Source: Microcella alkalica (GTDB lineage Bacteria > Actinomycetota > Actinomycetes > Actinomycetales > Microbacteriaceae). From it: DNA of 64,000 bases. Made by a program: the position numbers and the translations under genes. The first letter of the stretch is position 1, and each line of letters starts with the position of its first letter. The stretch spans positions 62,001 through 126,000 of the forward strand of contig NZ_JACGWX010000006.1 of NCBI RefSeq assembly GCF_014137945.1. The letters are read 5' to 3'. The notes below the pieces were generated by a model that saw nothing but the letters and a program-made list of their open reading frames with translations, searched no databases and was not told the origin of the DNA. Positions 6,020 to 45,832 of the stretch are shown here, in pieces.

Positions 6020-6108
6020 TCGACGAAATGAAGGGAGCGGAGATGGAATCCACGGCGTGTCGGGGCGGCACACCGCCGCGGGTCGCCTCGCTCCCTTCAT
6101 TTCGTCGA
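6020..6108. repeat. Nested double-palindrome element, copy 1
   Basis: Outer arms of 20 bp (6020-6039 and 6089-6108) are perfectly complementary and carry the core AATGAAGGGAGC / GCTCCCTTCATT inside TCGAC...GTCGA ends. An inner imperfect stem starts with ACGGCGTGTCG at 6052-6062 and pairs with CACACCGCCG. Copies 2 and 3 (14508-14598 and 45745-45832) share the same architecture. This copy lies just downstream of the LysR stop codon and upstream of the flavoprotein gene start. Confidence 0.9.
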
Positions 6109-6118
6109 CCGCACCGGT

Positions 6119-7015
6119 TCAGCCGGCGACCGCGCGGGCGAGCACCGCGCGCACGGCGACGATCGCGGGGCGCGAGGCCGACGTGCGGCGCGCGGCCGTG
6201 AACACCTCGCGCGACGGTGCGCCCGGCAGACCGACGAGCCGCACCGTCGCGCGGCCGCCCATCCACAGCAGGTCGGGCAGCAGCGCGACCGCGTGCCCGG
6301 CCTCGATGAAGCGCACGTGCGCCTGCAGGTCGGCGGTCTCGAAGCGCACGTCGGGCTCGAAGCCCGCGAGCCGGCACTGCTGCTCGGCCCAGTGGCGGCT
6401 CGCGGTGCCGCGCGGCTCCATGACCCACGCCGCGTCGGCCGCGTCGGCGAGCGCGCGCCCGCGCCAGCCGCGCGGCACCCCGAGCCGCAGCGCGTCGCGG
6501 TGCAGCGGCACGCGGTCGAGCTCGCGCCGCAGCGGGGCGGCGTGCGCGGGGTACTGCTCGGCGATCACGAGGTCGAACTCGCGCGCCCACACCTCGTCGA
6601 GCGCGCTCTCGGGCTCGCGCTGCGTCAGCTCGACCCGCAGCGACGGATGCTCGACCTCGAGCAGCGACAGCGCCCGCGGCACGATGCCGAGCGCCGCCGA
6701 CTGGAACACCGCGAGCCGCACGGTGCCCCGCAGCGGCTCGCCCTCCGTCGCGGCGAGGGATGCCCCGAGCGCCGACTCGAGGCGCTCCATCTCGTCGAGG
6801 AGACGGCCTGCGCCCTCGACCAGGAGCTCGCCCTGCGGAGTCAGCTGCACCCGCCGGCCGGAGCGCTCGAGCAGCGGCACGCCCGCCTCGACCTCGAGCT
6901 GCGCGAGCTGCTGCGAGATCGTCGACGGGCTGTAGGCGAGGGCGCGCGCGACGGCGTGCAGGGTGCCGCGTCGGTGCACCTCGCGCAGGAGGCTCAGGCG
7001 GCGGAGATCGAGCAC
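6119..7015 (-). CDS. LysR-family transcriptional regulator
   Basis: A 298-residue LysR regulator with an N-terminal winged helix (about residues 1-60, including ALAYSPSTISQQLAQLE as recognition region) and a C-terminal effector-binding domain. The start is a GTG preceded by GAGGAGG at ideal spacing. It is transcribed divergently from putA, and a 23-bp perfect dyad (7032-7054) lies between them, so control of putA and of itself is the simplest inference. It resembles the ArgP-like subgroup, but the ligand is not known. Confidence 0.88.
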   Translation of the reverse strand: MLDLRRLSLLREVHRRGTLHAVARALAYSPSTISQQLAQLEVEAGVPLLERSGRRVQLTPQGELLVEGAGRLLDEMERLESALGASLAATEGEPLRGTVRLAVFQSAALGIVPRALSLLEVEHPSLRVELTQREPESALDEVWAREFDLVIAEQYPAHAAPLRRELDRVPLHRDALRLGVPRGWRGRALADAADAAWVMEPRGTASRHWAEQQCRLAGFEPDVRFETADLQAHVRFIEAGHAVALLPDLLWMGGRATVRLVGLPGAPSREVFTAARRTSASRPAIVAVRAVLARAVAG

Positions 7016-7031
7016 GGGGGCCTCCTCGATG

Positions 7032-7054
7032 ATTGTTCGAGCATACCGAACAAT
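7032..7054. promoter_or_regulatory. Putative LysR operator between the LysR gene and putA
   Basis: ATTGTTCG, a 7-nt spacer, then CGAACAAT gives a perfect 8-bp-arm dyad. It is A+T-rich compared with its surroundings and starts about 17 bp from the LysR start codon. The layout fits the T-N11-A-like binding sites of LysR regulators. Binding by this regulator is inferred. Confidence 0.65.
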
Positions 7055-7176
7055 ACTGTGCGTGAATGCTCGCTTTTCGTGACGGCCCGCCGTGCGCACA
7101 CTGGGATCCAGGCGGGCCGAGCGGGCCGCGCGGTGTGCGCGCGACCGGGCCCCTCTCCGCGGAGGCTGACAGGCTG

Positions 7177-10100
7177 ATGACCATGAGCACCCCGATCGAT
7201 CGCCCGCGCGAGGCCGACCTCGCCGCCCTCGAGCCGCTCGGCGACGAGGCCGTCCATCTCGTGCGCCGCTGGCTCGACGAGGCGGTTGACGCGAAGCCCG
7301 ACGCCGCCGCCGCCCGTCTCGCGGGCCTCCTGAAGGACCCGGACGGCCTGCACTTCGCCATCGGCTTCGTCGACCGCGTCGCCCGGCCGGAGGACCTGCG
7401 CGTCGCGGCACGCAACCTCGAAGAGCTCAGCGAGCGCATCCCGCGGTTCCTGCCCGCCCCGCTGCGCGGGCTCATCGCGCTCGGCGGCGGCTTCGCGCGG
7501 TTCCTGCCGAACCCGATCATCCCGATCGCGCGGCGCGTGCTGCGCGGCATGGTCGGTCACCTCATCGTCGACGCGACGCCCGAGAAGCTCGGGGCGACGC
7601 TCGCGACCCTGCGCGAGAACGGCGACCGGCTCAACATCAACCTGCTCGGCGAGGCCGTGCTGGGCGACGCGGAGGCGGACAAGCGACTCGCGGGCATCCA
7701 CGCTCTCGTCGCGCGCGACGACGTCGACTACGTCTCGGTGAAGGTCTCGTCGATCGTCAGTCAGCTGTCGATGTGGGCGTTCGACGAGACCGTCGACCGC
7801 GTCGTCGATCGCCTCGTGCCGCTGTACGAGGAGGCGGCGCGCACGGGCACGTTCCTCAACCTCGACATGGAGGAGTTCCGCGACCTCGACCTCACGATCG
7901 CGGTCTTCGAGAAGCTGCTCGACCGCCCGACGCTGCACGGCTTCGATGCCGGCATCGTGCTGCAGGCGTACCTGCCCGAAGCCGTCCCCGCGCTCGAGCG
8001 ACTCACCGCGTGGGCGCAGCGCCGCCGGGCCGCGGGCGGCACCGGCATCAAGGTGCGCGTCGTGAAGGGCGCGAACCTCGCGATGGAGCGCGTCGATGCC
8101 GCCGTGCACGGCTGGCCCGTCGCTGTGCTGCCGAGCAAGCAGGCGAGCGACGCCAACTACAAGCGCGTGCTCGAGCTCGCCCTGCGCCCCGACCGCGTCG
8201 ACGCCGTGCGCATCGGCGTCGCGGGCCACAACCTGTTCGACATCGCGTGGGCGCACCTGCTCGCCGGCTCGCGCGGCGTCGCCGACCGCGTCGAGTTCGA
8301 GATGCTGCTCGGCATGGCGCCTGACCAGACCGAGGCGGTGCGCGGCACGGTCGGCTCCCTGCTGCTCTACACGCCCGTCGTGCACCCGGACGACTTCGAG
8401 TCGGCGATCAGTTACCTCATCCGCCGCCTGGAGGAGAACGCGAGCACCGAGAACTTCCTATCCGGAGCCTTCGAGCTCGCGAACTCGCACCAGATGTTCG
8501 CGCGCGAGCAGGGCCGCTTCCTCGCCTCGCTCGTCGACATCATCGACCATCCGGGCGCGCCGGCTCCGCACCGCGTGCAGAACCGGCAGACGGGGGCGGA
8601 TGCTCCGCGCGAGCTGCCCCTCGGCGCGACGGCCGACTCGCTCGGCGTGCGGGAGAACTTCGACAACGAGCCCGACACCGACCCGGCTCTGCCCGCCAAC
8701 CGGGAGTGGGGCCGCGCGATCCTCGAGCGGTCGCGCGCGACCGTGCTCGGAGCCGACGCCGTGGCCGCCGCCGCGATCGCGACGCCCGGCGAGATCGAGC
8801 GCGCCGTCGCGGATTCGCGCGCCGCCGCATCCGCCTGGGCTTCGCGTTCGGTCGACGATCGCGCCGGAGTCCTGCACGCGGCGGGGCGGATGCTCGCCGC
8901 CCGCCGCGCGGACCTCCTCGAGATCATGGCCGCCGAGGCCGGCAAGACCCTCGCGGAGGGCGACCCCGAGGTCAGCGAGGCGATCGACTTCGCCCACTAC
9001 TACGCCGAAAGCGCGCGCGAGCTGGAGCGCGTCGAGGGGGCGCGCTTCGCGCCGGTGCGGCTCACGCTCGTCGTGCCGCCGTGGAACTTCCCCGTCGCGA
9101 TTCCGGCCGGGGGCGTGCTCGCGGCGCTCGCCGCGGGCAGCGCGGTCATCATCAAGCCCGCGCCGCAGGTGCGCCGCTGCGCGGCCGTCATGGTGCAGGC
9201 GCTGTGGGATGCCGGGGTGCCGCGCGAGGTCCTGCGCTTCGTCGACGTGCCCGAGAACGAGCTCGGGCAGCAGCTCGTGAGCCACCCGGCGGTCGACCGC
9301 GTCGTGCTCACGGGGGCGTTCGAGACGGCGGCGCTGTTCCGCTCGTGGCGGCCCGACCTGCCGCTGCTGGCGGAGACGAGCGGCAAGAACGCGATCGTCG
9401 TGACGCCGTCGGCCGACTACGACCTCGCCGCCGCCGACCTCGCGCGCTCGGCGTTCGGGCACGCGGGGCAGAAGTGCTCGGCGGCCTCGCTCGGGATCCT
9501 CGTCGGGTCGGTCGCCGACTCGCCGGCCTTCCGCCGTCAGCTCGTCGACGCCGTGTCGACCATGCGCGTCGGATGGCCGGGGGACCCGACGACGGTCGTC
9601 GGCCCGCTCATCGAGCCCGCCGCGGGCAAGCTCCTGCGCGCGCTGCGCGATCTCTCGCGCGGGGAGTCGTGGCTCATCCAGCCGCGCCAGCTCGACGATG
9701 CAGGTCGGCTGTGGTCGCCGGGCGTGCGGCTCGACGTCGCGCCGGGCAGCGAGTTCCACACGACGGAGTACTTCGGACCCGTGCTCGGGCTCATCCGCGC
9801 CGCCGACCTCGACGAGGCGCTCGCGCTTCAGAACGCGACCCCCTACGGGCTGACGGCGGGGCTGCACTCGCTCGACGCGTCGGAGGTCGAGCACTGGGTC
9901 GACCGCGTCGAGGCGGGCAACCTCTACGTCAATCGCGGCATCACGGGCGCGATCGTGCGCCGGCAGCCGTTCGGCGGGTGGAAGCGCTCGAGCGTCGGCG
10001 GCTCGACGAAGGCGGGCGGGCCGTCGTACCTCTTCGGCTTCGGCTCGTGGGAGCCGGTCGAGCGCTCGCCGAAGCAGAACCTCAGTCTGCGCGGGTTGAG

Positions 10101-10737
10101 CGCCGAAGTGCGCCGCGTGCTCGAGGCGGCTCAGCCCGGCCTCGACTTCGCCGGCTTCGACACGGCGCGGGCGGGGGCACTCTCGGACGAGCGGGCGTGG
10201 GCCGACGAGTTCGGCGTCGCGCGCGACGTGAGCGACCTCGGCGTCGAGCGCAACGTGCTCCGGTACCGCGTGACCTCGGAGCCGGTGGTGGTGCGGCTCG
10301 CGTCGGGCGGGTCGACCGGCGCGCTCGTTCGCGTGCTGCTCGCGGCGGTGCGGGCAGGGGCGCCCGTCGCGGTGTCGACGCCCGTTCCACTGCCATCGGC
10401 GCTGCTGTCGCTCGCGGAGGAGTTCGGCTCGCCGCTGCGTGCCGCCTCGATCGTGATCGAGAGCGATGCGGCGTTCACGGCGCGGGTCGTCGCGGAGCGC
10501 CCGTCGCGCATCCGCCTCATCGGCGGTGACGGAGGCGCGGATGCTCGCCCCGCGTCGGAGGTGGCGCGCGAGCTGTTCGCCGCCCTCGACGGAGACCCGG
10601 ACGTCACGATCTGGTCGGGGCCCGTCACTGCCGCGGGTCGCGTCGAGCTGCTGCCGTTCCTGCGCGAGCAGTCGGTGACAGTCACGGCGCACCGGTTCGG
10701 CAACCCGTACCCGGCGCTCGCCGAGCTGCCGCTGTAG
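7177..10737 (+). CDS. putA: Bifunctional proline dehydrogenase / L-glutamate gamma-semialdehyde dehydrogenase
   Basis: Oxidises proline to glutamate in two steps. The 1186-residue protein has a FAD-dependent proline dehydrogenase barrel (about residues 110-450, with RRLEENASTENFLSGAF near 415) and an NAD-dependent aldehyde dehydrogenase domain (about 505-960). The dehydrogenase has the catalytic cysteine in GQKCSAAS (Cys767) and the LLAETSGKN glutamate motif. A further 220 residues match the C-terminal part of long PutA proteins. There is no DNA-binding domain at the N-terminus, so repression must come from elsewhere, presumably the divergent LysR. The ATG at 7177 follows GGAGG; 7183 is an alternative. 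Confidence 0.93.
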   Translation: MTMSTPIDRPREADLAALEPLGDEAVHLVRRWLDEAVDAKPDAAAARLAGLLKDPDGLHFAIGFVDRVARPEDLRVAARNLEELSERIPRFLPAPLRGLIALGGGFARFLPNPIIPIARRVLRGMVGHLIVDATPEKLGATLATLRENGDRLNINLLGEAVLGDAEADKRLAGIHALVARDDVDYVSVKVSSIVSQLSMWAFDETVDRVVDRLVPLYEEAARTGTFLNLDMEEFRDLDLTIAVFEKLLDRPTLHGFDAGIVLQAYLPEAVPALERLTAWAQRRRAAGGTGIKVRVVKGANLAMERVDAAVHGWPVAVLPSKQASDANYKRVLELALRPDRVDAVRIGVAGHNLFDIAWAHLLAGSRGVADRVEFEMLLGMAPDQTEAVRGTVGSLLLYTPVVHPDDFESAISYLIRRLEENASTENFLSGAFELANSHQMFAREQGRFLASLVDIIDHPGAPAPHRVQNRQTGADAPRELPLGATADSLGVRENFDNEPDTDPALPANREWGRAILERSRATVLGADAVAAAAIATPGEIERAVADSRAAASAWASRSVDDRAGVLHAAGRMLAARRADLLEIMAAEAGKTLAEGDPEVSEAIDFAHYYAESARELERVEGARFAPVRLTLVVPPWNFPVAIPAGGVLAALAAGSAVIIKPAPQVRRCAAVMVQALWDAGVPREVLRFVDVPENELGQQLVSHPAVDRVVLTGAFETAALFRSWRPDLPLLAETSGKNAIVVTPSADYDLAAADLARSAFGHAGQKCSAASLGILVGSVADSPAFRRQLVDAVSTMRVGWPGDPTTVVGPLIEPAAGKLLRALRDLSRGESWLIQPRQLDDAGRLWSPGVRLDVAPGSEFHTTEYFGPVLGLIRAADLDEALALQNATPYGLTAGLHSLDASEVEHWVDRVEAGNLYVNRGITGAIVRRQPFGGWKRSSVGGSTKAGGPSYLFGFGSWEPVERSPKQNLSLRGLSAEVRRVLEAAQPGLDFAGFDTARAGALSDERAWADEFGVARDVSDLGVERNVLRYRVTSEPVVVRLASGGSTGALVRVLLAAVRAGAPVAVSTPVPLPSALLSLAEEFGSPLRAASIVIESDAAFTARVVAERPSRIRLIGGDGGADARPASEVARELFAALDGDPDVTIWSGPVTAAGRVELLPFLREQSVTVTAHRFGNPYPALAELPL

Positions 10738-10812
10738 GGCGCTTGCGCGGGCTCGGCGCTCGCGCCGCGGCACCCGCTCGGCTGCGGGTAGGGTCGCCGC
10801 ACCCCTGTCCAC

Positions 10813-10888
10813 GAACTCCGGAGATCTGGGGCCGCCCCGCCGCCCGTTCTCCGGCGTCCCGGGCCCGGCGAACCGGAACTCCGGAGTT
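10813..10888. repeat. Intergenic segment flanked by direct GAACTCCGGAG repeats
   Basis: In the 277-bp gap between putA and the GntR gene, GAACTCCGGAG occurs near 10813-10823 and again inside the perfect palindrome AACTCCGGAGTT at 10877-10888. The intervening 50 bp is GC-rich with further CTCCGG cores. No open reading frame is convincing here. It may be a repeat remnant or a hairpin downstream of putA. Confidence 0.5.
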
Positions 10889-11014
10889 AGAGCACGCGCT
10901 CTTCGGGAAGTGCGCACGGGGTGAATCGAGTTCGCCCGCTCCGCACTTTCAGAAGCCTGCGGCGCATCGCCTGCGCCCCGCCGTGATCGGCTCCGGCGCG
11001 CGTGCTGCGGCGGC

Positions 11015-11371
11015 TCACGCTCGCAGCGCGGCGCGCACGAGCGCGAGAGCGGCGTCGTCGGCGAGGCCGAGGCGGCGCGAGCGGGCGACGAACTCGTGCG
11101 CAGCATCCTGCGCCTGGCGCTCGGTCGGGTCGCCCTGAGGGGCGACGAACGAGCCGGCGCGGCCCCGGGTGTCGATGATGCCGTCGGCCTCGAGCTCGCG
11201 GTAGGCGCGTGCAACGGTGTTGACGGCGAGGCCGAGCTCCTCGGCGAGGGCGCGCACAGTCGGCAGCTTCGCACCGGCGACGAGTGCGCCTCCCGCGACC
11301 GCGTCGCGCACCTGCACGCGCAGCTGCTCGAACGGCGGGGTCGAGACGGAGGCGTCGATCGCGAAGCGCAT
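11015..11371 (-). CDS. GntR-family regulator, YtrA-like short form
   Basis: A 118-residue protein containing only the GntR winged helix (about residues 10-78; AGAKLPTVRALAEELGLAVNTVARAYRELEADGI region) and a short helical tail. This is the YtrA subfamily, which usually controls a neighbouring ABC transporter; none is adjacent here. TAGCCT at 11378-11383 (minus strand) ends 6 nt before the ATG with no ribosome-binding site, indicating a leaderless transcript. Confidence 0.85.
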   Translation of the reverse strand: MRFAIDASVSTPPFEQLRVQVRDAVAGGALVAGAKLPTVRALAEELGLAVNTVARAYRELEADGIIDTRGRAGSFVAPQGDPTERQAQDAAHEFVARSRRLGLADDAALALVRAALRA

Positions 11372-11404
11372 GGGCCGAGGCTACCCGCGCGCAGCTCCCG
11401 ATGG

Positions 11405-11460
11405 AGCCCGAAAGTCGCGAGTGGGCCCGAACCTTCGGGCTCACATGCCACTTTCGGGCT
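11405..11460. repeat. Compact 27-bp-arm hairpin
   Basis: The segments 11405-11431 and 11434-11460 are inverted copies matching at 23 of 27 positions, separated by only CC. Both arms begin and end with AGCCCGAAAGT and CCCGAA motifs. It lies downstream of the ramB-like gene (minus strand) and upstream of the GntR gene, so it may terminate ramB transcription; a dispersed repeat family is also possible. No T-run follows. Confidence 0.7.
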
Positions 11461-11526
11461 CACGCGCGGGGTGCTGGGCGGGGTGCGGGACCCGGGCGCG
11501 GGGTGCAGGCGCGACGCGTGCGCCGG

Positions 11527-12993
11527 CTACACCCCGGCGTGACGCTCGAGGAACGCGAACACCTCGGTGCGATCGACCCCCGGCAGGGTTTCGCGCGGCA
11601 TCGCGGCGAGCAGCGACGAGTTGATTCGCGCCTGCGGGCGGGCGGCGCCGGCCCAGCGGGCGGCGAGCTCCGGCGGAGCATCCTGGCAGCAGGACGGGTC
11701 GGGGCAGGTCGACGAACCGCGCCGCTGCGTCTCGCGCCCGCGGAACCACTTCACGTGGGCGAAGGGCGTACCGACCGAGATCGAGAACTCGCCGGCCGAC
11801 CCCGATTCGATGCGCGAGGTGCACCAGTAGGTGCCGGTCGGCTTGTCCGTGTATTGGTGGAACGGGCTGAACCGGTCGGGCTCGTCGAACACCTGCCGCG
11901 CCGACCACTTCCGGCACACGCTCTGGCCCTCGACCGCGCCGAGGGCATCGGTCGGGAACTTCACCGAGTCGTTCTCGTACGCCTTCGACAGCACGCCCGC
12001 CGCCGACACCTTGAGGAAGTGCACGGGGATTGCCAGGTGCTCGGTCGCGAGGTTCGTGAACCGATGGGCCGCCGTCTCGTACGACACGGCGAACCGGTCG
12101 CGCAGATCCTCGACGGCGAGCTCGCGCTTCGCCTTCGCCGCCTGCAGGAACTCGACCGCGTCGCCCTCCGGCACGAGAAGCGCCGCCGCGAGGTAGTTCG
12201 TCTCCACCCGCTGCCGCAGGAACTCCGCGTACGAGGTCGGCTCGGGCCGCTGCAGCACGTGCCCGGCGAGCGCCTGCAGCAGGTTCGTGCGCGGGTCGCG
12301 CCCCGGGGCGTTCTGCACCGGCAGGTAGATGCGGCCGTGCTCGAGGTCGGTGATCGTGCGCGTCGAGCTCGGCAGGTCGGTGACGTAGTGCAGCGAGAAG
12401 CCCAGGTGCGCCGCGAGCTCGGCCGCGAGTCGCTGAGACAGCGGCCCGCCCTCGTGCTTGATCGCCTTGAGCAGCCCGGCCGCCGTCTGCTCGAGCTCGC
12501 CGTAGTGGTTGCCGCGCGCGCGCATCTCGCCGCGCAGCTCGGCGTTCGCGCGCCGCGCCTCCTCGGGGGTCGCCGCGCGCTCGCGGTGCACGCGCTCGAG
12601 CTCGGCGTGCAGCGACAGGATCGTGCGGATCGCGTCGTCCGACAGCGACTTCCGCACCGGCAGAGACGGGATGCCCAGGGCCGCGAACAGCGGACCCTCC
12701 TGCACCCGGGTCAGCGCGATCTCCAGCGCGGCCCGCCCCGTGGGCGCCTCCGAGCTCAGCAGCCGCTCGAGCGGCACGCCGAGCGCCCGCGCGATCGACT
12801 GCAGCTCGCCGAGCTTCGCCTCGCGCTTGCCGTTCTCGAGCACCGAGACGTGCGAGGTCGCGACGCCGATGCGCTCGCCGAGCTCGGCGAGGGTCAGCCC
12901 CGCGTCGGAGCGGAGCTGGCGGATTCGGCGGCCGAGCGTCAGGGAGTCGAGCACCTCTTCAGCGTGGTCGGGGGTCGGAGCGCGGTCGAGCAT
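11527..12993 (-). CDS. ramB: RamB-like XRE/short-chain acyl regulator of acetate metabolism
   Basis: A 488-residue regulator with an N-terminal XRE helix-turn-helix (about residues 20-75; [25 protein letters not shown]). A middle IrrE-like peptidase fold follows, whose metal motif is degenerate (LAGHVLQR rather than HExxH), and then the C-terminal DUF2083-type sensor domain with several Cys residues (CRKW, WCTSR, CPDPSCC). Corynebacterium RamB has this architecture and controls aceA and aceB. Here the gene is divergent from aceA, which is strong context support. The ATG at 12993 is chosen because the helix-turn-helix begins soon after; the longer reading frame upstream runs into the intergenic promoter region. 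Confidence 0.85.
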
Positions 12994-13165
12994 GCGACGA
13001 GCATTCCACGCTTCGCTTTTCGGACCAAGTGAAAAACAGCGAAATTTCAGTCGATCTTTCGGGATGCGCGGGCTCATTCTTCGAGGAATGTTGAGGCACG
13101 GCGCCACGAGAGCGCGTCGCAGCCAGCCCCGCACGACACGCGGGCACACCGAAGGAGCAGCCCAG

Positions 13166-14476
13166 ATGAACACCCAGCACCGCACCGGCGACCAGACGCA
13201 GAACGCCGCCGAGCTCGAGACCGCGTGGAAGACGGAGGCCCGCTGGTCGGGCGTTCAGCGCGACTACTCCGCTGAGGACGTCATCGCGCTGCGCGGCCGC
13301 GTTCAGGTCGAGCACACCATCGCGCGCCGCGGCGCCGAGAACCTGTGGGATCTCATCCACACCGAGGACTACGTCAATGCGCTCGGCGCCCTCACCGGCA
13401 ACCAGGCCGTGCAGCAGATCCGCGCCGGTCTCAAGGCCATCTACCTGAGCGGCTGGCAGGTCGCCGCCGACGCCAACCTCTCCGGTCAGACGTACCCCGA
13501 CCAGAGCCTCTACCCGGCGAACTCGGTGCCCGCGGTCGTCAAGCGCATCAACAACGCACTGCTCCGCGCCGACCAGATCGCCGCCGCCGAGGGCGACGCG
13601 TCGGGTCGTGACGGCGGCATCGACTGGCTCGCCCCGATCGTCGCCGACGCCGAGGCCGGCTTCGGCGGCCCCCTCAACGCCTACGAGCTCATGACCGCGA
13701 TGATCGAGGCGGGTGCCGCGGGTGTGCACTGGGAGGACCAGCTCGCGAGCGAGAAGAAGTGCGGCCACATGGGCGGCAAGGTGCTCGTGCCGACGCAGCA
13801 GCACATCCGCACGCTCAACGCCGCACGCCTCGCCGCCGACGTCGCCGGCGTGCCGAGCATCATCGTCGCGCGCACCGACTCGCTCGCCGCCGACCTCGTC
13901 ACGAGCGACATCGACGAGCGCGACCGCCCCTTCCTCACCGGCGACCGCACCGAGGAGGGCTTCTTCCGCACCCGTCCGGGCATCGAGACGGTGCTCGCCC
14001 GCGGCCACGCCTACGCCCCGTACGCCGACCTGCTGTGGGTCGAGTCGAGCGAGCCCGACCTCGAGCTCGCGCGCACCTTCGCCGAGAGCATCCACAAGGA
14101 GTTCCCCGGCAAGAAGCTCGCCTACAACTGCTCGCCGAGCTTCAACTGGAAGCGCCACCTCGACGACGACACCATTGCGAAGTTCCAGAACGAGCTCGGC
14201 GCGATGGGCTACGCGTTCCAGTTCATCACCCTCGCCGGGTTCCACTCGCTCAACCACTCGATGTTCGAGCTCGCGCGCGGCTACAAGGAGCGCCAGATGA
14301 GCGCCTACGTCGAGCTGCAGGAGGCCGAGTTCGCCTCCGAGGTGAACGGCTACACGGCGACGAAGCACCAGCGCGAAGTCGGCACGGGCTACTTCGACCG
14401 CATCGCGACGGCGCTCAACCCCGACAGCGCGACGCTCGCGCTCGTCGGCTCGACCGAGGCCCAGCAGTTCCACTAG
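13166..14476 (+). CDS. aceA: Isocitrate lyase
   Basis: Splits isocitrate into glyoxylate and succinate, the first step of the glyoxylate shunt. The 436-residue length fits the bacterial class. The catalytic loop KKCGHMGGK is intact, with Cys199 as the acid/base residue, and the SPSFNWK motif follows. A GGAG site sits 8 nt before the ATG. It is divergent from the ramB-like regulator and upstream of aceB; a double-palindrome element separates aceA and aceB. Expression is presumably induced on acetate or fatty acids. Confidence 0.97.
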
Positions 14477-14507
14477 GCCTGCGCCGGGCATCCCCCCAAC
14501 GAACCCA

Positions 14508-14598
14508 GTCGACCAGATGAAGGGAGCCGGGCCGCCCGGGACGGCGTGTCGTCGCGACACGCCGTGGCCGGACCCGCCGCTCCCTTCATTCGGTCGAC
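14508..14598. repeat. Nested double-palindrome element, copy 2
   Basis: The outer arms 14508-14527 and 14579-14598 match at 18 of 20 positions around the AATGAAGGGAGC-type core (here AGATGAAGGGAGC). The inner stem is perfect: ACGGCGTGTCG at 14541-14551 pairs with CGACACGCCGT at 14555-14565 around a 3-nt loop. It fills most of the aceA-aceB gap and would form a strong RNA or cruciform structure between two genes of one pathway. Confidence 0.92.
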
Positions 14599-14618
14599 CC
14601 CCTCGAACGGAGAACACC

Positions 14619-36631: not shown

Positions 36632-36682
36632 TGTCAGTTCGTGACATCACGTACCGTGCTCTCATGACAGTTCATGACATCA
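36632..36682. promoter_or_regulatory. Twin operator-like repeats between TetR and SDR genes
   Basis: TGTCA-N5-TGACA (36632-36646) is followed by ATCACG. About 30 bp later a near copy, GACAGTTCATGACATCACG, overlaps the first codons of the SDR gene. The two 19-bp segments match at 17 positions. The leaderless SDR promoter (TACCGT, 36652-36657) lies between them, so a bound TetR dimer could bracket it. Confidence 0.65.
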
Positions 36683-37659: not shown

Positions 37660-37748
37660 GTCGGCGGATGCCGCGTCCGGGCACGACGCGCGCACGAGAC
37701 CGCCACGCAGGGGCGACGGGATGCCCCTCCGAGCCCTACGGTGGAGGC

Positions 37749-37802
37749 ATGACCACGACCACGCGTCGATGCGGCCGGGCGAGCGGGCGGAGCATCCGCT
37801 GA
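37749..37802 (+). CDS. 17-residue leaderless upstream ORF
   Basis: TACGGT (37737-37742) lies 6 nt before this ATG, the same spacing as other leaderless genes here. The frame (MTTTTRRCGRASGRSIR) ends in TGA overlapping the ATG of the aldo/keto reductase (TGATG at 37800-37804). It could be a coupling leader peptide. Alternatively a one-base error has split the true N-terminus of the reductase. Confidence 0.4.
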   Translation: MTTTTRRCGRASGRSIR

Positions 37803-38644: not shown

Positions 38645-38726
38645 CCGCGCTGCCTCACCGTCTCGAGGTCGACCGCGGTCGGCCCGTACGACCGCGCCAT
38701 CGTTACCCCCTCGAAATATGTTGTGC

Positions 38727-38755
38727 TTGACCACATTCCCGGGCCGACGTATATT
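38727..38755 (+). promoter_or_regulatory. Strong sigma-70-type promoter of the xylo-oligosaccharide importer
   Basis: TTGACC (38727-38732) and TATATT (38750-38755) are exactly 17 bp apart, close to consensus and much stronger than other promoters in the window. Transcription would start near 38762, just before two LacI-type dyads, giving a tightly repressible promoter. Confidence 0.8.
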
Positions 38756-38771
38756 CAGACCGTCCACACAC

Positions 38772-38798
38772 TTTCGACGTAGAAGTCGAAACTTTCGA
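38772..38798. promoter_or_regulatory. LacI-family (xylan regulator-type) operators
   Basis: Two overlapping dyads lie between the promoter and the binding-protein gene: TTTCGAC-N6-GTCGAAA (38772-38791) and TCGAAA-C-TTTCGA (38786-38798). The second resembles operators of Streptomyces BxlR-type LacI regulators (CGAAA...TTTCG). A related sequence precedes the LacI gene at about 46887-46912. Confidence 0.72.
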
Positions 38799-38809
38799 GA
38801 GGTTCAACG

Positions 38810-40129
38810 ATGAACAGACGAGCAGCGCGGCGCCTGGCCGCGATCGCTCTGACCGGCATCACGGTCGGCGCCCTCGCCGCCTGCGCGCCGGCGGAGAACG
38901 GAACGGGCGGATCCGGGAGCGGCGACGAGGTCACGCTCACCTGGTGGCACAACGGAACCGGCGAACCCCTCCTCGGCTTCTGGGAGGACGTCGCGGAGGA
39001 GTTCGAGGACGCCAACCCCGGCGTCAACGTCGAGGTCACCGCCTACCAGAACGAGGAGCTGCAGCGCACGCTCATCCCGAACCAGCTGCGCACCGGCAGC
39101 GGGCTCGACCTCTACCAGCAGTGGGGCGCGGGCGAGCTCGCCGCCCAGGTCGAGGCCGGCTTCGTGAAGGACATCAGCGAGGACGTGTCCGAGCAGGTCG
39201 ACGCCCTCGGCGGCGTCGTCGCCCCGTGGCAGTACGACGGGGCCACCTACGGCCTGCCGTTCAACTTCGGCATCTCGGGCTTCTGGTACAACACCGAGCT
39301 GTTCGAGCAGGCGGGCATCGAGGACACTCCCGAGACCCTCGACGACCTGTACGAGGCCATCGAGGCGCTCAAGGCCGCGAACATCACGCCCATCGCCGTC
39401 GGCGCGGGCGACGGCTGGCCGGCCGCGCACTACTGGTACCACTTCGCTCTCAAGTCGTGCGCGCCCGAGGTCCTCCAGCAGGCGCAGGTCGACTACACCT
39501 TCGACGACCCCTGCTTCCTCGAGGCCGGCGAGCTCCTCGAGGAGTTCATCGGCTCCGAGCCCTTCAACGACGGCTTCCTCGCCACGAGCGCCCAGCAGGG
39601 CGCAGGCAGCTCCGCCGGTCAGCTCGCCACGGGTGCCGCGGCCATGGAGCTCATGGGCCACTGGAACCCGGGCGTCATGGGCGGCATCCTCCAGGAGGAG
39701 TCGGGCGACGAGAACGCGACGCCGCCCGAGTTCCTCGGCTGGTTCAACTTCCCGGCCATCGACGGCGCGCAGGGCGACCCGACCGCGGCCCTCGGCGGCG
39801 GCGACGGATTCTCCTGCTCGGCGTGGTCGCCGCCGGAGTGCACCGACCTGCTGAACTACATCACGAGCGTCGAGGTGCAGACCCGCTTCGGCGAGATCGG
39901 CGCCGGCATCCCCGTCACGCCGGGCTCCGAGGCCGGCATCGCGGACGTCAACCTCCAGCAGGTGCTCGCCGGCCTGCAGTCGTCGACCTACGTGCAGCTC
40001 TGGCTCGACACCGCCTACGGCCCGACCGTCGGCGGCGCCATGAACGAGGGCATCGTCTCGCTCTTCGGCGGTCAGGGCTCGCCCGACAGCATCGTCGACA
40101 GCATGAGGAACGCCGCGGCGACGCTGTAA
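38810..40129 (+). CDS. Sugar ABC transporter substrate-binding lipoprotein
   Basis: A 439-residue family-1 extracellular solute-binding protein. It has a signal peptide with lipobox LAAC (Cys25), then a binding domain with ITPIAVGAGDGWPAAHYWY and many surface aromatic residues typical of oligosaccharide binders. It heads an operon of two permeases, GH3 and GH10 enzymes, so xylo-oligosaccharides (xylobiose and longer) are the likely ligands. GAGAGG precedes the ATG. Confidence 0.9.
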   Translation: MNRRAARRLAAIALTGITVGALAACAPAENGTGGSGSGDEVTLTWWHNGTGEPLLGFWEDVAEEFEDANPGVNVEVTAYQNEELQRTLIPNQLRTGSGLDLYQQWGAGELAAQVEAGFVKDISEDVSEQVDALGGVVAPWQYDGATYGLPFNFGISGFWYNTELFEQAGIEDTPETLDDLYEAIEALKAANITPIAVGAGDGWPAAHYWYHFALKSCAPEVLQQAQVDYTFDDPCFLEAGELLEEFIGSEPFNDGFLATSAQQGAGSSAGQLATGAAAMELMGHWNPGVMGGILQEESGDENATPPEFLGWFNFPAIDGAQGDPTAALGGGDGFSCSAWSPPECTDLLNYITSVEVQTRFGEIGAGIPVTPGSEAGIADVNLQQVLAGLQSSTYVQLWLDTAYGPTVGGAMNEGIVSLFGGQGSPDSIVDSMRNAAATL

Positions 40130-40133
40130 TCCC

Positions 40134-41120
40134 ATGCCCCTCTCCACGATGAACGCCGGGCCCGCGGTCTCCGCCGCGGGCCCGGCGCCCACCCCGACCC
40201 GCTCCTCCGCCACCGCGCGCCGGCGCAGCCAGCGCTCCGGCGGCGCCCTCCTCATCTGGGCCTTCGCCCTGCCGGCGCTCGTCGTCTACACGACGTTCGT
40301 GCTCGTGCCCGTGGCCCTCGCCGCCGTCTACAGTTTCTTCAACTGGAACGGCCTCGGCGCACTCGACCGCTTCATCGGCGTCGACAACTACGCCCGCGCC
40401 CTGCAGGACCCGATCTTCCTCGGCGCGATGGGCAACAACTTCGCCATCGTCGGGCTCTCGCTCGCCGTCCAGGGCCCGCTCGCGATCGGCATCGCGCTGC
40501 TGCTCAACCGCAACCTGCGCGGCCGCGCCCTGATCCGCACCCTCATCTTCGTTCCGTACGTGCTGAGCGAGGTCGTCGCCGGTCTCGCCTTCCGCCTCAT
40601 GCTCCCCCCGGGCGGGCCCGTCGACTCCGCGCTCACCTCGCTCGGCTGGTCGGGCGAGAAGCCGCTCTGGCTCGCCGACCCGTCGGTCGCGTTCTGGACC
40701 CTCTTCGCCGTCATCACCTGGAAGTACCTCGGCTTCGCGATCATCCTCATGCTCGCCGGGCTCCAGGGCGTGCCGGAGGAGCTCTCGGAGGCCGCGTCGA
40801 TCGACGGCGCGACCTGGTGGCAGACGCAGCGCTACATCACCCTCCCGCTGCTCGGGCCGACCATCCGCATCTGGGCCTTCCTGTCGGTCATCGGCTCTCT
40901 CCAGCTGTTCGACATGGTCTGGATCCTCACGGGAGGCGGCCCGCTCAACGCCACCGAGACGATGGCGACCTACATGGTCGAGTACGGCAACGGCCGCTCG
41001 CAGGTCGGCTACGGCAGCGCCGTCGCCGTCATCCTCTTCGTCGTCTCGCTCGTCATCGCGCTGGTCTACCAGCGCTTCGTCCTCCGTCGCGACCTCCGCG
41101 GCGCCATCACGAGGGGCTGA
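40134..41120 (+). CDS. Sugar ABC transporter permease (MalF/UgpA type)
   Basis: A 328-residue permease with six main helices and the coupling motif EAASIDGATWWQTQRYITLPLLGPT (about residues 221-245), the EAA loop that contacts the ATPase. It starts 4 nt after the binding-protein stop. No ATPase gene is in this operon; a shared MsiK-type ATPase elsewhere in the genome is the usual actinobacterial solution. Confidence 0.92.
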   Translation: MPLSTMNAGPAVSAAGPAPTPTRSSATARRRSQRSGGALLIWAFALPALVVYTTFVLVPVALAAVYSFFNWNGLGALDRFIGVDNYARALQDPIFLGAMGNNFAIVGLSLAVQGPLAIGIALLLNRNLRGRALIRTLIFVPYVLSEVVAGLAFRLMLPPGGPVDSALTSLGWSGEKPLWLADPSVAFWTLFAVITWKYLGFAIILMLAGLQGVPEELSEAASIDGATWWQTQRYITLPLLGPTIRIWAFLSVIGSLQLFDMVWILTGGGPLNATETMATYMVEYGNGRSQVGYGSAVAVILFVVSLVIALVYQRFVLRRDLRGAITRG

Positions 41121-41122
41121 CC

Positions 41123-42034
41123 GTGGCCATCACGACCGCACCCGACCGCACGACGGAGGCCGACCGATCGAGCTCGCGCCGGGCATCAGCCCCCCGCAGC
41201 TCGGGCCGCCCCGGCACGGGACGCTGGGGCACCCCGGTGGCGTACATCATCGCGCTCGTCATCTGCGGCATCACCGTCGCGCCGGTGATCTACGTGATCC
41301 TCGGCGGGTTCCGCACGACGGCGCAGATCAATCGCGACCCCGGCGGCTTCCCCGACCCGTGGGTGTTCGACAAGTACGGCGCCGTCTTCCAGGACCCGAA
41401 CTTCTGGACGCAGTTCACCAACTCGACGATCGTCGCCGTCGCGACGACCGCGGGCGTCGTGCTCCTCGGCGTCATGGCTGCGTTCGTCATCGCCCGGTAC
41501 GAGTTCCGGGGGCGCACGTTCCTGTTCTCGCTCTTCACCGCGGGTCTGCTCTTCCCCCTCACGGTCGCGGTGCTGCCCCTCTTCACGATGCTGCGCTCGT
41601 TCGGCCTGCTCGGGAACCTGCTCGCCGTCATCGGCCCGCAGATCGCATTCGCCCTGCCGACGACGATCATCATCCTCGTGCCGTTCCTCCGGGCGATCCC
41701 GGCCGAGCTCGAGGACGCCGCGCTCATCGACGGCGCCGGGCGCTTCACCTTCTTCTGGCGCGTGCTGCTGCCGCTGTCGTGGCCGGGGCTCATCACCGTC
41801 GGCGTGCTCGCCTTCGTCGCGAGCTGGAACGCCTACCTGCTGCCGCTGCTGCTGCTCGGCAACCCCGCCACCGCGACGCTGCCCGTCGGCGTGCAGTACT
41901 TCTCGACCGCCTACTCGCAGGACACCGCGGGGGTGCTCGCCTTCACATCGATCGCGATGCTGCCCGCCCTTCTGTTCTTCACCCTCGCCCAGCGCCGCAT
42001 CGTCGGCGGTCTGACAGGAGCCGTCAAGGGATGA
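41123..42034 (+). CDS. Sugar ABC transporter permease (MalG/UgpE type)
   Basis: A 303-residue permease with six helices and the EAA loop EDAALIDGAGRFTFFWRVLLPLS. It starts with GTG 2 nt after the first permease stop and overlaps the GH3 gene at its 3' end (ATGA at 42031-42034). It forms a heterodimer with the preceding permease for xylo-oligosaccharide import. Confidence 0.92.
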   Translation: MAITTAPDRTTEADRSSSRRASAPRSSGRPGTGRWGTPVAYIIALVICGITVAPVIYVILGGFRTTAQINRDPGGFPDPWVFDKYGAVFQDPNFWTQFTNSTIVAVATTAGVVLLGVMAAFVIARYEFRGRTFLFSLFTAGLLFPLTVAVLPLFTMLRSFGLLGNLLAVIGPQIAFALPTTIIILVPFLRAIPAELEDAALIDGAGRFTFFWRVLLPLSWPGLITVGVLAFVASWNAYLLPLLLLGNPATATLPVGVQYFSTAYSQDTAGVLAFTSIAMLPALLFFTLAQRRIVGGLTGAVKG

Positions 42035-44418
42035 CCAACCACCCCGCCCCCGCCGTCACGACCGACGGCCACGCCCCCTGGCGCGATCGCGGCCTCCCCG
42101 CCGACCATCGCGTCGATGCCCTCGTCGCGGCGATGACGCTGCCCGAGAAGGTCGCGCAGCTCTACGGCGTGTGGGTCGGCGCCGGTGCCGACGGCGGCGA
42201 CGTCGCCCCCCACCAGCACGACCTCGACGACGCGATCGACCTCGACGAGATCCTGGCGGAGGGCCTCGGGCAGCTGACGCGGCCCTTCGGCACCGCTCCG
42301 GTGGATGCCGGGGTCGGCGCCCTCTCGCTCCTCACGACCCAGAGGCGCATCACCGCGCAGAGCCGCTTCGGCATCCCGGCCGTCGCACACGAGGAGTGCC
42401 TCGCGGGCTTCGCCGCGTGGGGCGCGACGGCGTACCCCGTGCCGCTGTCGTGGGGCGCGAGCTTCGACCCCGAGCTCGTCGAGCGCATGGCGGAGCGCAT
42501 CGGCGCCGACATGCGCTCGGTCGGCGTGCACCAGGGTCTCGCGCCCGTGCTCGACGTCGTCCGCGACGCCCGCTGGGGGCGCGTGGAGGAGACCATCGGC
42601 GAGGATCCGTACCTCGTCGCGACGGTGGGAAGCGCGTACGTGCGCGGCCTCGAGTCCTCGGGCGTCGTCGCGACGCTCAAGCACTTCGTCGGCTACTCGG
42701 CCTCGCGCGCGGGCCGCAACCTCGCTCCGGTGTCGATCGGGGCGCGCGAGCTCGCCGACGTTCTCCTTCCGCCGTTCGAGATGGCGATCCGCGAGGGCGG
42801 CGCGCGCAGCGTCATGAACTCCTACACGGACCTCGACGGGGTGCCCAGCGCGGCCGACCGCAGCCTGCTCACCGAGCTGCTGCGCGAGGAGTGGGGCTTC
42901 ACCGGCACGGTCGTCGCCGACTACTTCGCCATCGCGTTCCTCAAGCTCCTGCACGGCACGGCCGGCTCGTGGGCAGAGGCGGCGGGCGCCGCGCTCTCCG
43001 CGGGCATCGACGTCGAGCTGCCGACCGTGAAGACCTTCGGCGAGCCGCTGCGCCGCGCCGTCGAGGAGGGTGCGATCGACGAGGCTCTCGTCGACACGGC
43101 CCTGCGCCGCGTGCTCGCCCAGAAGCTCGAGCTCGGTCTCCTCGACGACGGGTGGGATGCCGTACCGCCCGCCCTGCGCGGCGTCGACCTCGACCTCGCC
43201 GCCGTCCGAGGCACGATCGACCTCGACCCGCCGGCGAACCGCGCCCTCGCGCGCGCGCTCGCCGAGCGCTCAATCGTCCTCGTCCGCAATGACGGCGTCC
43301 TGCCGCTCGCCGTCGGCGGAGGCGCGGCCGCGCGCATCGCCGTCATCGGCCCCAACGCCGACGAGCGCTACGCGATGCTCGGCTGCTACTCCTTCCCGAC
43401 GCACGTCGTCTCGCAGCATCCGGGCGTCGAGCTCGGCATCGACATCGCGACCGTCCTGGATGCCGTGCGCGCCGAATTCGCGCACGCGACCGTCGCGCAC
43501 GTCCACGGCACCGGCATCGACGACGGCTCGACGGAGGGCATCGCCGCCGCCGTCGCGGCCGCCCGCGAGTCCGACGTCGCGTTCGTCGTGCTCGGGGACC
43601 GGGCCGGACTCTTCGGCCGCGGCACGAGCGGCGAGGGCTGCGACGCCGACGACCTCGCCCTGCCCGGCGCGCAGCAGCAGCTGCTCGACGCCGTGCTCGA
43701 CACCGGCACGCCCGTCGTGCTCGTGATGCTCGCGGGCCGGCCGTACGCACTCGGCTCCGCGACGACGCGGGCTGCGGCGATCGTGCAGGCGTTCTTCCCC
43801 GGCGAGGAAGGAGCGGCCGCGATCGCGGGCGTGCTGAGCGGGCGCATCGAGCCGTCCGGTCGACTGCCCGTGAGCATCCCCGCTCATCGCGGCGTTCAGC
43901 CGTCGACCTACCTCGCGGCGCCGCTCGCCCGCAAGAGCGGGGTCTCGAACATCGACCCGACCGCGGCCTACCCGTTCGGGCACGGGCTCGGCTACGGCTC
44001 GGCCACCTGGACCGATCTCGAGAGCCCCGACACCACAGCGACGACCGACGGCGAGGTCGTGCTGTCGATGCGCCTCGTCAACACGGGCGACCGCCACGCC
44101 GTCGAGGTCGTTCAGCTCTACCTGCACGACCCGGTCGCGTCGATCGTGCGCCCCGTGCAGCGGCTCATCGGCTACCAGCGCGTCGTCGTGCCCGCCGGGT
44201 CGAGCGCGCGCGTCGTCGCGACCGTGCCCGTCGACCTCGCGGGCTTCACCGGTCGCGACGGCCAGCGCATCGTCGAGCCGGGCGCGATCGAGCTCGGCTT
44301 CGGCCGATCGAGCGCCGACATCCCGCTCGTGCACCGCGTCGAGGTGACAGGGGCGCCGCGCGAGCTCGGCGCCGACCGGGCCGTGCACGCGCGATTCCAG
44401 GTGCTGGCGGGCGCGTGA
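42031..44418 (+). CDS. GH3 beta-xylosidase/beta-glucosidase
   Basis: A 795-residue glycoside hydrolase family 3 protein: an N-terminal barrel (about residues 30-330) with nucleophile Asp297 in TGTVVADYFAI, an alpha/beta sandwich with KHFVGYSAS earlier, and a C-terminal fibronectin-III-like domain (about 670-790; NTGDRHAVEVVQLYL). There is no signal peptide, so it trims imported xylo-oligosaccharides to xylose inside the cell. ATGA overlap couples it to the permease gene, and GTGA overlap couples it to GH10. Confidence 0.9.
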   Translation: MTNHPAPAVTTDGHAPWRDRGLPADHRVDALVAAMTLPEKVAQLYGVWVGAGADGGDVAPHQHDLDDAIDLDEILAEGLGQLTRPFGTAPVDAGVGALSLLTTQRRITAQSRFGIPAVAHEECLAGFAAWGATAYPVPLSWGASFDPELVERMAERIGADMRSVGVHQGLAPVLDVVRDARWGRVEETIGEDPYLVATVGSAYVRGLESSGVVATLKHFVGYSASRAGRNLAPVSIGARELADVLLPPFEMAIREGGARSVMNSYTDLDGVPSAADRSLLTELLREEWGFTGTVVADYFAIAFLKLLHGTAGSWAEAAGAALSAGIDVELPTVKTFGEPLRRAVEEGAIDEALVDTALRRVLAQKLELGLLDDGWDAVPPALRGVDLDLAAVRGTIDLDPPANRALARALAERSIVLVRNDGVLPLAVGGGAAARIAVIGPNADERYAMLGCYSFPTHVVSQHPGVELGIDIATVLDAVRAEFAHATVAHVHGTGIDDGSTEGIAAAVAAARESDVAFVVLGDRAGLFGRGTSGEGCDADDLALPGAQQQLLDAVLDTGTPVVLVMLAGRPYALGSATTRAAAIVQAFFPGEEGAAAIAGVLSGRIEPSGRLPVSIPAHRGVQPSTYLAAPLARKSGVSNIDPTAAYPFGHGLGYGSATWTDLESPDTTATTDGEVVLSMRLVNTGDRHAVEVVQLYLHDPVASIVRPVQRLIGYQRVVVPAGSSARVVATVPVDLAGFTGRDGQRIVEPGAIELGFGRSSADIPLVHRVEVTGAPRELGADRAVHARFQVLAGA

Positions 44419-45704
44419 GCGACGGGTCTGCCCGAGCGCGTGGCGCGACCGACGGAGACGCCCGCGCGGGCGTCGCCACCGACGCGTTCGCGCACCGGCG
44501 CGGCGAGGCCGAGCTGACGCTGCTCGACTTCGGGGGCCGGCCGCTCGCCGACCGCGACGTCATCGTCGAGCAGGTGCGGCACGCCTTCGCGTTCGGCTGC
44601 ATCGGCTTCGACCTCATCGAGCACGCCAACGGCGGTGCCGACGAGAGAGCGCTCGCCGCCGACTGGCTGGAGCTGTTCACCCTCGCCGTCCTGCCGTTCT
44701 ACTGGGGGGAGTTCGAGCCCGCGCGCGGGCATCCTCGCACCGCGTCGTTGCAGGCCGCGGCGCGCTGGTTCCGTGAGCGCGGCGTGCGCGTCAAGGGGCA
44801 CCCGCTCGTGTGGCACACCGTCAAGGCGCGCTGGCTCGACGCGCTCCCCGACGCCGAGATCGAGGCGATCGTGCGCGCCCGGGTACGCCGCGAGGCGAGC
44901 GACTTCGCTGGCCTCGTCGACGAGTGGGACGCCATCAACGAGGTCGTCATCATGCCCGACTTCGTCAACGAGCCCGACGGCGTGCCGAACGCGATCTCGC
45001 GCCTCGCCCGCCACCTCGGCCGTGTCGAGATGGTGCGGCTCGCGGTCGACGAGGCGCGCGCCGCCGACCCGGGAGCGCGCCTGCTGCTCAACGACTTCGA
45101 CCTCTCGGCCGACTACGAGCGGCTCATCGAGGGCGTGCTCGAGGCCGGAATCCGGCTCGACGGCATCGGCGTTCAGACGCACATGCACCAGGGCTTCCGC
45201 GGAGCGCAGCTGCTCGAGCTCGCCGACCGCTTCTGGCGCTTCGGCCTGCCTGTGCACTTCACCGAGACGACGATCGTCTCGGGCGACCTCATGCCGCCCG
45301 ACATCGTCGACCTCAACGACTTCCAGCCCGAGTCGTGGCCGTCGACGCCCGAGGGCGAGGCGCGCCAGGCCGATGAGCTCGAGCAGCACTACCGGATGCT
45401 CGTCGGCCACCCGGCGGTCGCCTCGGTCACCTACTGGGGCATCACCGACCGCGGAGCCTGGCTCGGCGCCCCCGTCGGCCTCGTCCGCGCCGACGGCTCG
45501 CGCAAGCCCTCGTTCGACCGTCTGCGCTCTCTCGTGCGCGACGAGTGGTGGCTGCCCGCGACGACGCTGCGCACCGACGCCGCCGGTCGCGTGCGCGTGT
45601 CCGGCTTCGCGGGCGACTACACGATCCGGGCGGCGGATGCTCGCGCCGAGGTCGCTCTGCCCGCAGGTTCGTCGGCGCAGGTCGTCGAGCTCGCCCACCC
45701 CTAG
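44415..45704 (+). CDS. GH10 endo-1,4-beta-xylanase, no signal peptide
   Basis: A 429-residue GH10 enzyme. The acid/base is Glu176 in DEWDAINEV and the nucleophile Glu284 in VHFTETT, with KGHPLVWH earlier. A C-terminal region of about 60 residues forms a small beta domain. There is no signal peptide or membrane segment, so it is predicted to be cytoplasmic, as in some Geobacillus xylan systems, and to cut imported xylo-oligomers. The GTG start overlaps the GH3 stop (GTGA). Confidence 0.9.
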   Translation: MSDGSARARGATDGDARAGVATDAFAHRRGEAELTLLDFGGRPLADRDVIVEQVRHAFAFGCIGFDLIEHANGGADERALAADWLELFTLAVLPFYWGEFEPARGHPRTASLQAAARWFRERGVRVKGHPLVWHTVKARWLDALPDAEIEAIVRARVRREASDFAGLVDEWDAINEVVIMPDFVNEPDGVPNAISRLARHLGRVEMVRLAVDEARAADPGARLLLNDFDLSADYERLIEGVLEAGIRLDGIGVQTHMHQGFRGAQLLELADRFWRFGLPVHFTETTIVSGDLMPPDIVDLNDFQPESWPSTPEGEARQADELEQHYRMLVGHPAVASVTYWGITDRGAWLGAPVGLVRADGSRKPSFDRLRSLVRDEWWLPATTLRTDAAGRVRVSGFAGDYTIRAADARAEVALPAGSSAQVVELAHP

Positions 45705-45744
45705 CCGCGCCCCGCCCACTCGCTCCCGTGCTCGCCTCCACCCG

Positions 45745-45832
45745 TGACCGAATGAAGGGAGCCGGGCGCGCTCCAACGGCGTGTCGCACCCGACACGCCG
45801 AGCACCGCCGCCCGGCTCCCTTCATTTGGTCG
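45745..45832. repeat. Nested double-palindrome element, copy 3
   Basis: The outer arms 45745-45766 and 45811-45832 pair at 20 of 22 positions (core AATGAAGGGAGCC). The inner stem ACGGCGTGTCG (45776-45786) pairs with CGACACGCCG (45791-45800) around a 4-nt loop. It lies between the converging GH10 and LacI genes, where a bidirectional terminator would be expected. Confidence 0.92.

Follow-up and report, generated by a model that had tools for sequence, protein, structure and literature searches.

A dispersed double palindrome in Microcella alkalica and its association with a flanked AbiEi-like nuclease gene

Why does the same palindrome of about 90 bp recur behind unrelated genes of one actinobacterial contig, and to which system does it belong? 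The stretch studied here, called the window, covers 64,000 bp of Microcella alkalica (assembly GCF_014137945.1) and corresponds to positions 62,001–126,000 of contig C6 of a 2.74-Mb genome in 13 contigs, designated G000 among the genomes compared. The window holds three such palindromes. Their outer arms have the common sequence tcGACSRAATGAAGGGAGC, the inner palindrome reads CGGCGTGTCG-N3-4-CGACACGCCG, and the spacers of about 14 nt between them differ among the copies (Table 1). We propose that these solo elements are probably target sites of a self-spreading nuclease whose gene is flanked, elsewhere in the genome, by palindromes with matching outer arms. This would be an apparently undescribed kind of self-spreading DNA, and no papers on DUF559/AbiEi proteins with flanking palindromes were found in the open-access literature.

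Elements and site-gene-site units

A search for the arm-gap-arm pattern returned six places genome-wide, and the reversed pattern none. Exact matches to ATGAAGGGAGC numbered 18, all of them inside 12 elements, from which the covariance model R1 was built. With both strands searched, R1 detected 17 elements in this genome at E < 1e-6; six more places with E values of 0.008–0.23 were left out of this count. Besides the dominant arm type, this genome has three older copies with AAATGCAGG-type arms. No inner hairpin with one mismatch or none lacked outer arms in 1.59 Mb of DNA, a sample partly picked around elements. No Rfam family matched above its gathering score in the window. The preliminary description of this DNA had placed the three copies correctly to within 1–2 bases, and had considered that they would be chance hairpins if the genome held no further copies. 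With 17 elements in the genome, the window palindromes are far from chance.

Two tandem elements located approximately 1 kb apart around one gene, hereafter a unit, were observed in five Microcella genomes (G000, G001, G004, G005 and G006) and in other genera (G202, G243, G097 and G304). A single gene lay between the elements in the units that were read. The unit of G000 was located outside the window, at 34.8–35.9 kb of contig C11. Eight Microcella genomes possessed at least five listed elements (G000, G001, G004, G005, G006, G011, G015 and G024), and five of these carried the cognate nuclease gene with an element on both sides. The solo elements mostly showed the arm type of the unit (11 of 15 in G000, 13 of 15 in G005, 5 of 6 in G004 and 3 of 3 in G006). 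In G008, two identical tandem copies of one palindrome, 122 bp apart, were found beside a nuclease gene (C1:2150214 and C1:2150336), and this pair is a recent local duplication.

The association extended to the wider nuclease family. Inverted repeats were present on both sides of 28 of 30 nuclease loci, compared to 22 of 61 control genes, and the two sides shared an identical arm word of at least 9 nt at 14 of the 30, compared to none of 61 controls (Fisher 1.4e-8). When mismatches were allowed, 25 of the 30 genes were recognised by eye as having matching palindromes on their two sides. Different paralogues were flanked by different arms, even within one genome. The arms of a second paralogue (GTTCGNAANTCAGGC) provided a prediction test: they retrieved 36 palindromes in 11 of 26 genomes, with up to eight per genome, and the reversed control retrieved none. 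All 36 measured 75–76 bp although the pattern allowed 58–90 bp, and the pairs included one around a nuclease gene in G017 and one around a broken gene in G024.

Arm similarity tracked protein similarity among 34 nucleases, with a Mantel r of 0.53 for hand-set arms and 0.51 for automatic arms. None of 20,000 permutations reached these values in either test, the largest permuted r being 0.23 and 0.25, respectively. The arm finder missed many symmetry centres, hence the hand-set arms, some of which were harmonised between close pairs; in the automatic repeat, 8 of 34 arms came from one side only, and G021 was dropped in both tests. The closest protein had the most similar arm for 17 of the 34 nucleases (null mean 1.4, maximum 8).

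Solo elements and units alternated at the same locus. The solo element at C4:155863 of G000 and its orthologue in G025 had the same two neighbouring genes as a nuclease unit of G006, G007, G017 and G020, where three arm types were read. A pcrA-like and a GDPD-like gene, both named by eye, enclosed the cognate unit in G000, G001 and G006, a truncated one in G011 and another paralogue in G005. The site of the unit shared by G004 and G005 was occupied by a further paralogue in G016.

Geometry and constraint of the palindrome

The element was composed of two outer arms, free spacers of about 14 nt and the inner palindrome, at a fixed spacing. Measured in ten Microcella genomes, the distance from arm to arm fell within 72–74 bp for 75 of the 78 copies; 84 elements were listed, but the six of G002, G008, G009 and G020 had no arm word set. 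Among the three odd geometries, the two in G024 resulted partly from wrong arm picking, and the element L308 of G005 has other arms. In nearly all symmetric copies the arm motif was 25 nt (rarely 24) from the inner half-site on both sides, with a centre of 3–4 nt. In G004 and G005, 19 of 23 copies read 24/15/14 or 14/15/24: one inner half-site was displaced by 10–11 bp, one helical turn, and the total was unchanged. A similar displaced layout was seen in two copies of another genus (G304). The freezing of the spacer length while its letters are free favours a protein–DNA complex, and an RNA-only reading is disfavoured by the frozen lengths and by the 10–11 bp shift.

Flank comparisons indicated that many sites were common to several species. 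Between the members of 11 orthologous pairs with a common arm family, changes affected 42 of 396 arm positions, compared to 145 of 308 spacer positions (Fisher 6.9e-28) and 9 of 220 core positions; these pairs correspond to 10 loci and were picked for equal arm type and geometry, other common sites being uncounted. Four of the six listed elements of G004 had G005 orthologues by both flanks, and the same changes were found in both arms at all four loci, two of these changes in 8 of 8 arms each and a third in 7 of 8. At one of the four loci the centre and long spacer were almost identical (3 of 28 letters differ), and the other three had diverged. A recent spread as miniature inverted-repeat transposable elements (MITEs) is disfavoured, the spacers being saturated but not the arms. 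In the locus L360 of G097, the two elements around the nuclease gene (2032–2126 and 3243–3313) had most spacer letters in common. Because of this similarity, it seems that the duplication of an element also copies its spacers, which drift later.

Within the genus, R1 matched in 13 of 26 genomes and a broader model, R2, in at least 16 of 26. At the family level, exact inner hairpins were found in 12 of 299 genomes and 7 of 78 genera, with none for the reversed control, and R2 matched in 21 of 299 genomes and 9 of 78 genera under stricter filters. The inner stem was near-invariant between species, and the arms were species-specific with both sides still complementary (GTGCACAAATGCAGGA in G005, GGCACRAATTCAGGC in G004, GCACGAATGAAGGA in G006 and TTTCAAGGAG in G001). 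One arm type dominated in each genome, G001 having two. The between-species alignment, which was fitted to the structure and contains both strands, showed double changes at 16 of 16 outer pairs, with 91.8% paired. The 12-copy alignment from this genome had a double change at only one of 26 pairs, and that pair was broken in three copies. The earlier suggestion that the structure is conserved, and not just the sequence, must consequently be divided: within the genome the arms are conserved as sequence too, and the compensating changes on both sides, the second point on which chance hairpins had been considered, appear between species.

Some observations concerned the inner palindrome in other contexts. 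A phage origin was not retained, as viral contigs held the inner stem in two stretches and the arm pair in none. In one of these contigs, of a predicted phage (IMGVR_UViG_3300024249_000020, L278), inner palindromes were located at 4980 and 5069, 89 bp apart, among repeated GTGTCTACA words. In the Saccharopolyspora loci L093, L094, L098, L102 and L183, the inner palindrome adjoined arrays of AT-rich palindromes of the GCAATTTCAATGGAAATTGC type; some of these loci also carried TTGTCCACA, and they form a different composite family. We take TTGTCCACA to resemble the actinobacterial DnaA box.

The nuclease and its possible mode of action

The unit protein associated an AbiEi-like DNA-binding part with a nuclease domain resembling Vsr and homing endonucleases. 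Pfam reported DUF559 above the cut-off in 4 of 6 proteins and AbiEi-type matches in 5 of 6, all below the cut-off, and PADLOC assigned AbiEi to 4 of 4 proteins and "homing endonuclease" to 2 of 4. The structure was modelled from 35 homologues (pLDDT 92.8, pTM 0.88). Foldseek aligned the model to AbiEi (6y8q, E 1.5e-5) over the N-terminal winged helix and the overall fold, to the catalytic domain of I-Bth0305I (3r3p, E 3.2e-3, probability 1.00, TM-score 0.80 on the target) and also to NGO0050. A sequence profile found I-Bth0305I and NGO0050 as well (E 4.8e-4 and 1.6e-7, respectively). Residues E186, D213, H230 and D239 were invariant in 35 proteins and recall the EDxHD motif. Each of the 26 Microcella genomes had 2–7 nuclease matches, a count that includes fragments belonging to one gene, and the protein gave three weak matches in plasmid records and one in phage records. 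Split or stop-bearing homologues (G000 C1:173800-174572, G024 C53:4238-5073 and G003 C3:107292-107723) indicate that units also decay in place.

We propose that the element is probably a long two-fold symmetric DNA recognition site of this winged-helix and Vsr-like nuclease protein. The site-gene-site arrangement would be the autonomous unit, and the solo sites would be dispersed copies without the gene. The protein would bind as a dimer along one face of about seven DNA turns, the winged-helix parts reading the outer arms and the nuclease parts the inner half-sites. For a studied relative of this nuclease type, a review on EDxHD homing endonucleases reports dimers on a target of nearly 60 bp (PMC3943268), which fits the two-fold site of 73 bp observed here. 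A nick or cut at an element might then allow recombinational repair to copy the unit, or an element alone, either to a further site or to a new position between genes, and the same repair would overwrite arms from one another. It is possible, and here we are more hesitant, that an AbiEi-type endonuclease uses its own palindromes as ports, the unit homing from palindrome to palindrome while cut and repair rewrite the arms genome-wide by molecular drive, which would define a nuclease-driven class of bacterial selfish DNA. If true, this rewriting would account for the concerted change of both arms at unlinked loci between sister species.

Several observations weigh against the proposal that the elements are targets of a spreading nuclease. 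The solo elements of G001 were of two arm types, with only two of five like the unit. In G011 the cognate gene lacked its N-terminus and had a single element, and G015 and G024 kept their elements although no cognate nuclease was found there (G024 being 82% complete). Five of the 30 nuclease genes had no match on both sides (G011a, G022, G015 and G001b with one side, G021 with none). The Mantel r dropped to 0.30 for pairs below 60% identity, the closest protein did not have the most similar arm for 17 of the 34 nucleases, and G025 and G011b had unrelated arms at 58% identity, G001a being also an exception. Outside Microcella, the length of the model matches ranged from 71 to 96. The proposal does not account for the inner palindrome without arms in many Actinobacteria, with at least 116 stretches in named genomes and arms in a minority. 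NCBIfam gave a name to none of four proteins. The I-Bth0305I alignment places A and N opposite H230 and D225, which leaves the identity of the active site putative. Finally, an active nuclease would cut the intact sites next to it, and cleavage must therefore be rare, limited to nicking or dependent on a trigger.

The palindromes might alternatively be bound without being mobile. The AbiEi-like part would repress its own gene through the flanking palindromes, and the solo copies would be decoys or antidote sites that the hosts must keep, a form of addiction. The AbiEi fold, the strong constraint on arms at orthologous sites and the maintenance of elements at common sites across species would agree with such a role. 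So would the somewhat greater decay of the arms where no cognate nuclease was found (means of 1.0 in G000, 2.6 in G015 and 3.2 in G024; p 0.036, or 0.059 without one misassigned G024 row), the inner core showing no consistent trend in G015 and G024. However, autoregulation needs no palindrome on both sides of the gene, G015 lives without a cognate nuclease that could be found, and the occupation of one locus by different paralogue units or by a solo element, depending on the species, points to movement. We consider this explanation unlikely.

Among known systems, the nuclease and its palindromes are closest to REPIN/RAYT (REPtron) in architecture and behaviour. Each end of a REPIN is a repetitive extragenic palindromic (REP) sequence, itself an imperfect palindrome. 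According to PMC3116915, a GI REPIN consists of two inverted 16-bp ends that are invariant and lie at a distance of 71 bp, comparable to the 72–74 bp found here, also with a less conserved spacer. In both cases the repeats are extragenic and genome-specific, with related repeats near a partner gene. The differences are that the partner gene here encodes an AbiEi-nuclease fusion and not a Y1 transposase, that single arms are not self-complementary (by eye) and are accompanied by a second, inner palindrome, and that the copies number at most about 20 per genome.

This resemblance raises the possibility of a MITE or REPIN family moved by a known transposase, of the Y1/RAYT or DDE type, and the size, the arms, the solo copies and the gene-bearing unit are indeed similar to those of REPINs and MITEs. 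The gene between tandem elements is nevertheless a nuclease, the spacers differ in nearly all copies, and the Y1 transposase domain (Y1_Tnp, PF01797) was found in none of the 26 genus genomes, while 6 of the 14 genomes used as controls gave matches; no search was made for DDE families. We regard such a transposase as exceedingly improbable. The preliminary proposal of a REP-like or non-autonomous mobile element was right in kind, since the elements are scattered between genes, mostly follow gene 3′ ends and have a gene-bearing relative elsewhere, but a REP family in the strict sense is rejected, none of the 26 genus genomes having a Y1/RAYT match.

Other systems share parts of the arrangement. 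The EDxHD homing endonucleases such as I-Bth0305I have the same catalytic-domain fold, but here two complete sites surround the gene, which neither resides in an intron nor interrupts its target (yet solo and unit forms alternate at one locus), the protein has an AbiEi-like DNA-binding part, and there are many solo sites. The AbiE (type IV) toxin-antitoxin systems resemble the unit by the N-terminal winged helix and overall fold of AbiEi, and differ in that the protein here is fused to a nuclease. AbiEi binds inverted repeats near its own gene, and the inverted repeats adjoining the gene of the unit might be bound likewise. The nuclease domain is also that of DUF559 / NGO0050 and MTES_1575 Vsr-like restriction endonucleases; the part of PMC3710099 that calls MTES_1575 a Vsr-family restriction endonuclease makes no mention of cognate palindromes. 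The DNA uptake sequences of Neisseria and Pasteurellaceae occur as species dialects, evolve in concert and form inverted pairs at gene ends. They differ from the present elements, which occupy about 17 loci, show no exact single-arm copies outside elements in G000 and have a linked nuclease.

DUF559, still named a domain of unknown function, gains a specific predicted DNA partner. Should the proposal hold, the nuclease matches in all 26 Microcella genomes and the palindromes around 25 of the 30 genes suggest that the units could belong to a mobile system that is common in Actinobacteria but has been overlooked, and if the nuclease drives the copying, they would represent a selfish element made from an endonuclease and palindromes, with no transposase found. 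The elements also offer a natural test of the concerted evolution of short dispersed repeats at fixed places, and of how a DNA-binding protein and tens of sites shift specificity together. As each species supplies a matched protein-site pair, the specificity code becomes readable.

Genomic context and minor observations

All three window copies were located downstream of a gene end, as first described. Copy 1 was 8 nt beyond the end of a minus-strand gene, LysR-type by eye, copy 2 lay between aceA-like and aceB-like genes, names also assigned by eye, and copy 3 between convergent genes.

Table 1. Positions of the three solo palindromes and their parts in the window.
Copy	Feature	Position	Strand
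1	whole palindrome, solo	6019..6109	no strand
1	left outer arm TCGACGAAATGAAGGGAGC	6020..6038	+
1	inner palindrome: two core halves around a 3-nt loop; two changes in right half	6053..6075	
1	right outer arm	6090..6108	-
2	whole element, solo, between aceA and aceB	14508..14598	no strand
2	left outer arm	14509..14527	+
2	inner palindrome CGGCGTGTCG-TCG-CGACACGCCG	14542..14564	
2	right outer arm	14579..14597	-
3	whole element, solo, between two convergent genes	45744..45833	no strand
3	left outer arm	45744..45762	+
3	inner palindrome CGGCGTGTCG-CACC-CGACACGCCG	45777..45800	
3	right outer arm	45815..45833	-

Neighbouring genes were called on both sides of 80 of the 84 listed elements; 42 pairs were convergent, 33 co-directional and 5 divergent, compared to 30, 136 and 62, respectively, in a baseline of 228 gaps of at least 60 bp. 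At least one gene end preceded 75 of the 80 elements. The gene finder missed the nuclease gene in several units, and the context of some unit-flanking elements is therefore wrong. The neighbours had no evident common function by eye, and the idea of a regulon was dropped as they look unrelated. An aceA-like gene was present in 20 genomes of the genus, with an element behind it in six (four arm types) and none in 14, as judged by eye. Sites with and without an element exist, the flanks being too diverged to define junctions or a target-site duplication.

This distribution would suit bidirectional intrinsic terminators or 3′-end stems between mostly convergent genes, the likeness of the arms coming from common descent only. 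The inner stem elsewhere was inside predicted genes in only 2 of 120 cases, and T tracts existed at a few loci, the window copies having none at their gene 3′ ends. However, the arms follow the nuclease and not the class of gene, the saturated letters and frozen lengths of the spacers are unlike an RNA internal loop, the neighbours appear unrelated by eye, the genome has roughly 17 such loci, and mobile elements also accumulate in convergent gaps. We find the terminator explanation very unlikely. The standard terminator module first envisaged may be a side effect, but it leaves the species-specific, nuclease-tracking arms and the rigid spacing unexplained. The TRIT terminators of Mycobacterium tuberculosis are a candidate source of the inner stem.

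The elements could also serve chromosome architecture, as sites that a host protein recognises in nucleoid occlusion or anchoring. They are rigid multi-part DNA sites, and among the matches listed 17 of about 20 G005 elements leaned towards the origin, at a mean of 0.39 of the half-chromosome. In the single-contig genomes G202 and G243 all listed elements (6 and 7, respectively) clustered within 0.37–1.18 Mb of 3.6 Mb. The positional bias is nevertheless weak and the common sites are not independent, and the nuclease paralogue to which the arms correspond occurs in some species and was not found in others. Such an architectural role appears highly improbable, and the target sites of a flanked nuclease remain our preferred explanation.

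Two further repeats were noticed. The words GGGCATCC and GGATGC recurred in intergenic DNA near elements throughout the genus, including the window at approximately 14487–14496, and possibly belong to another dispersed motif. Outside the window, the locus L219 on contig C6 of G000 (approximately 40.8–43.9 kb) showed internal repeats of about 231 bp, visible as BLAST offsets against G011.

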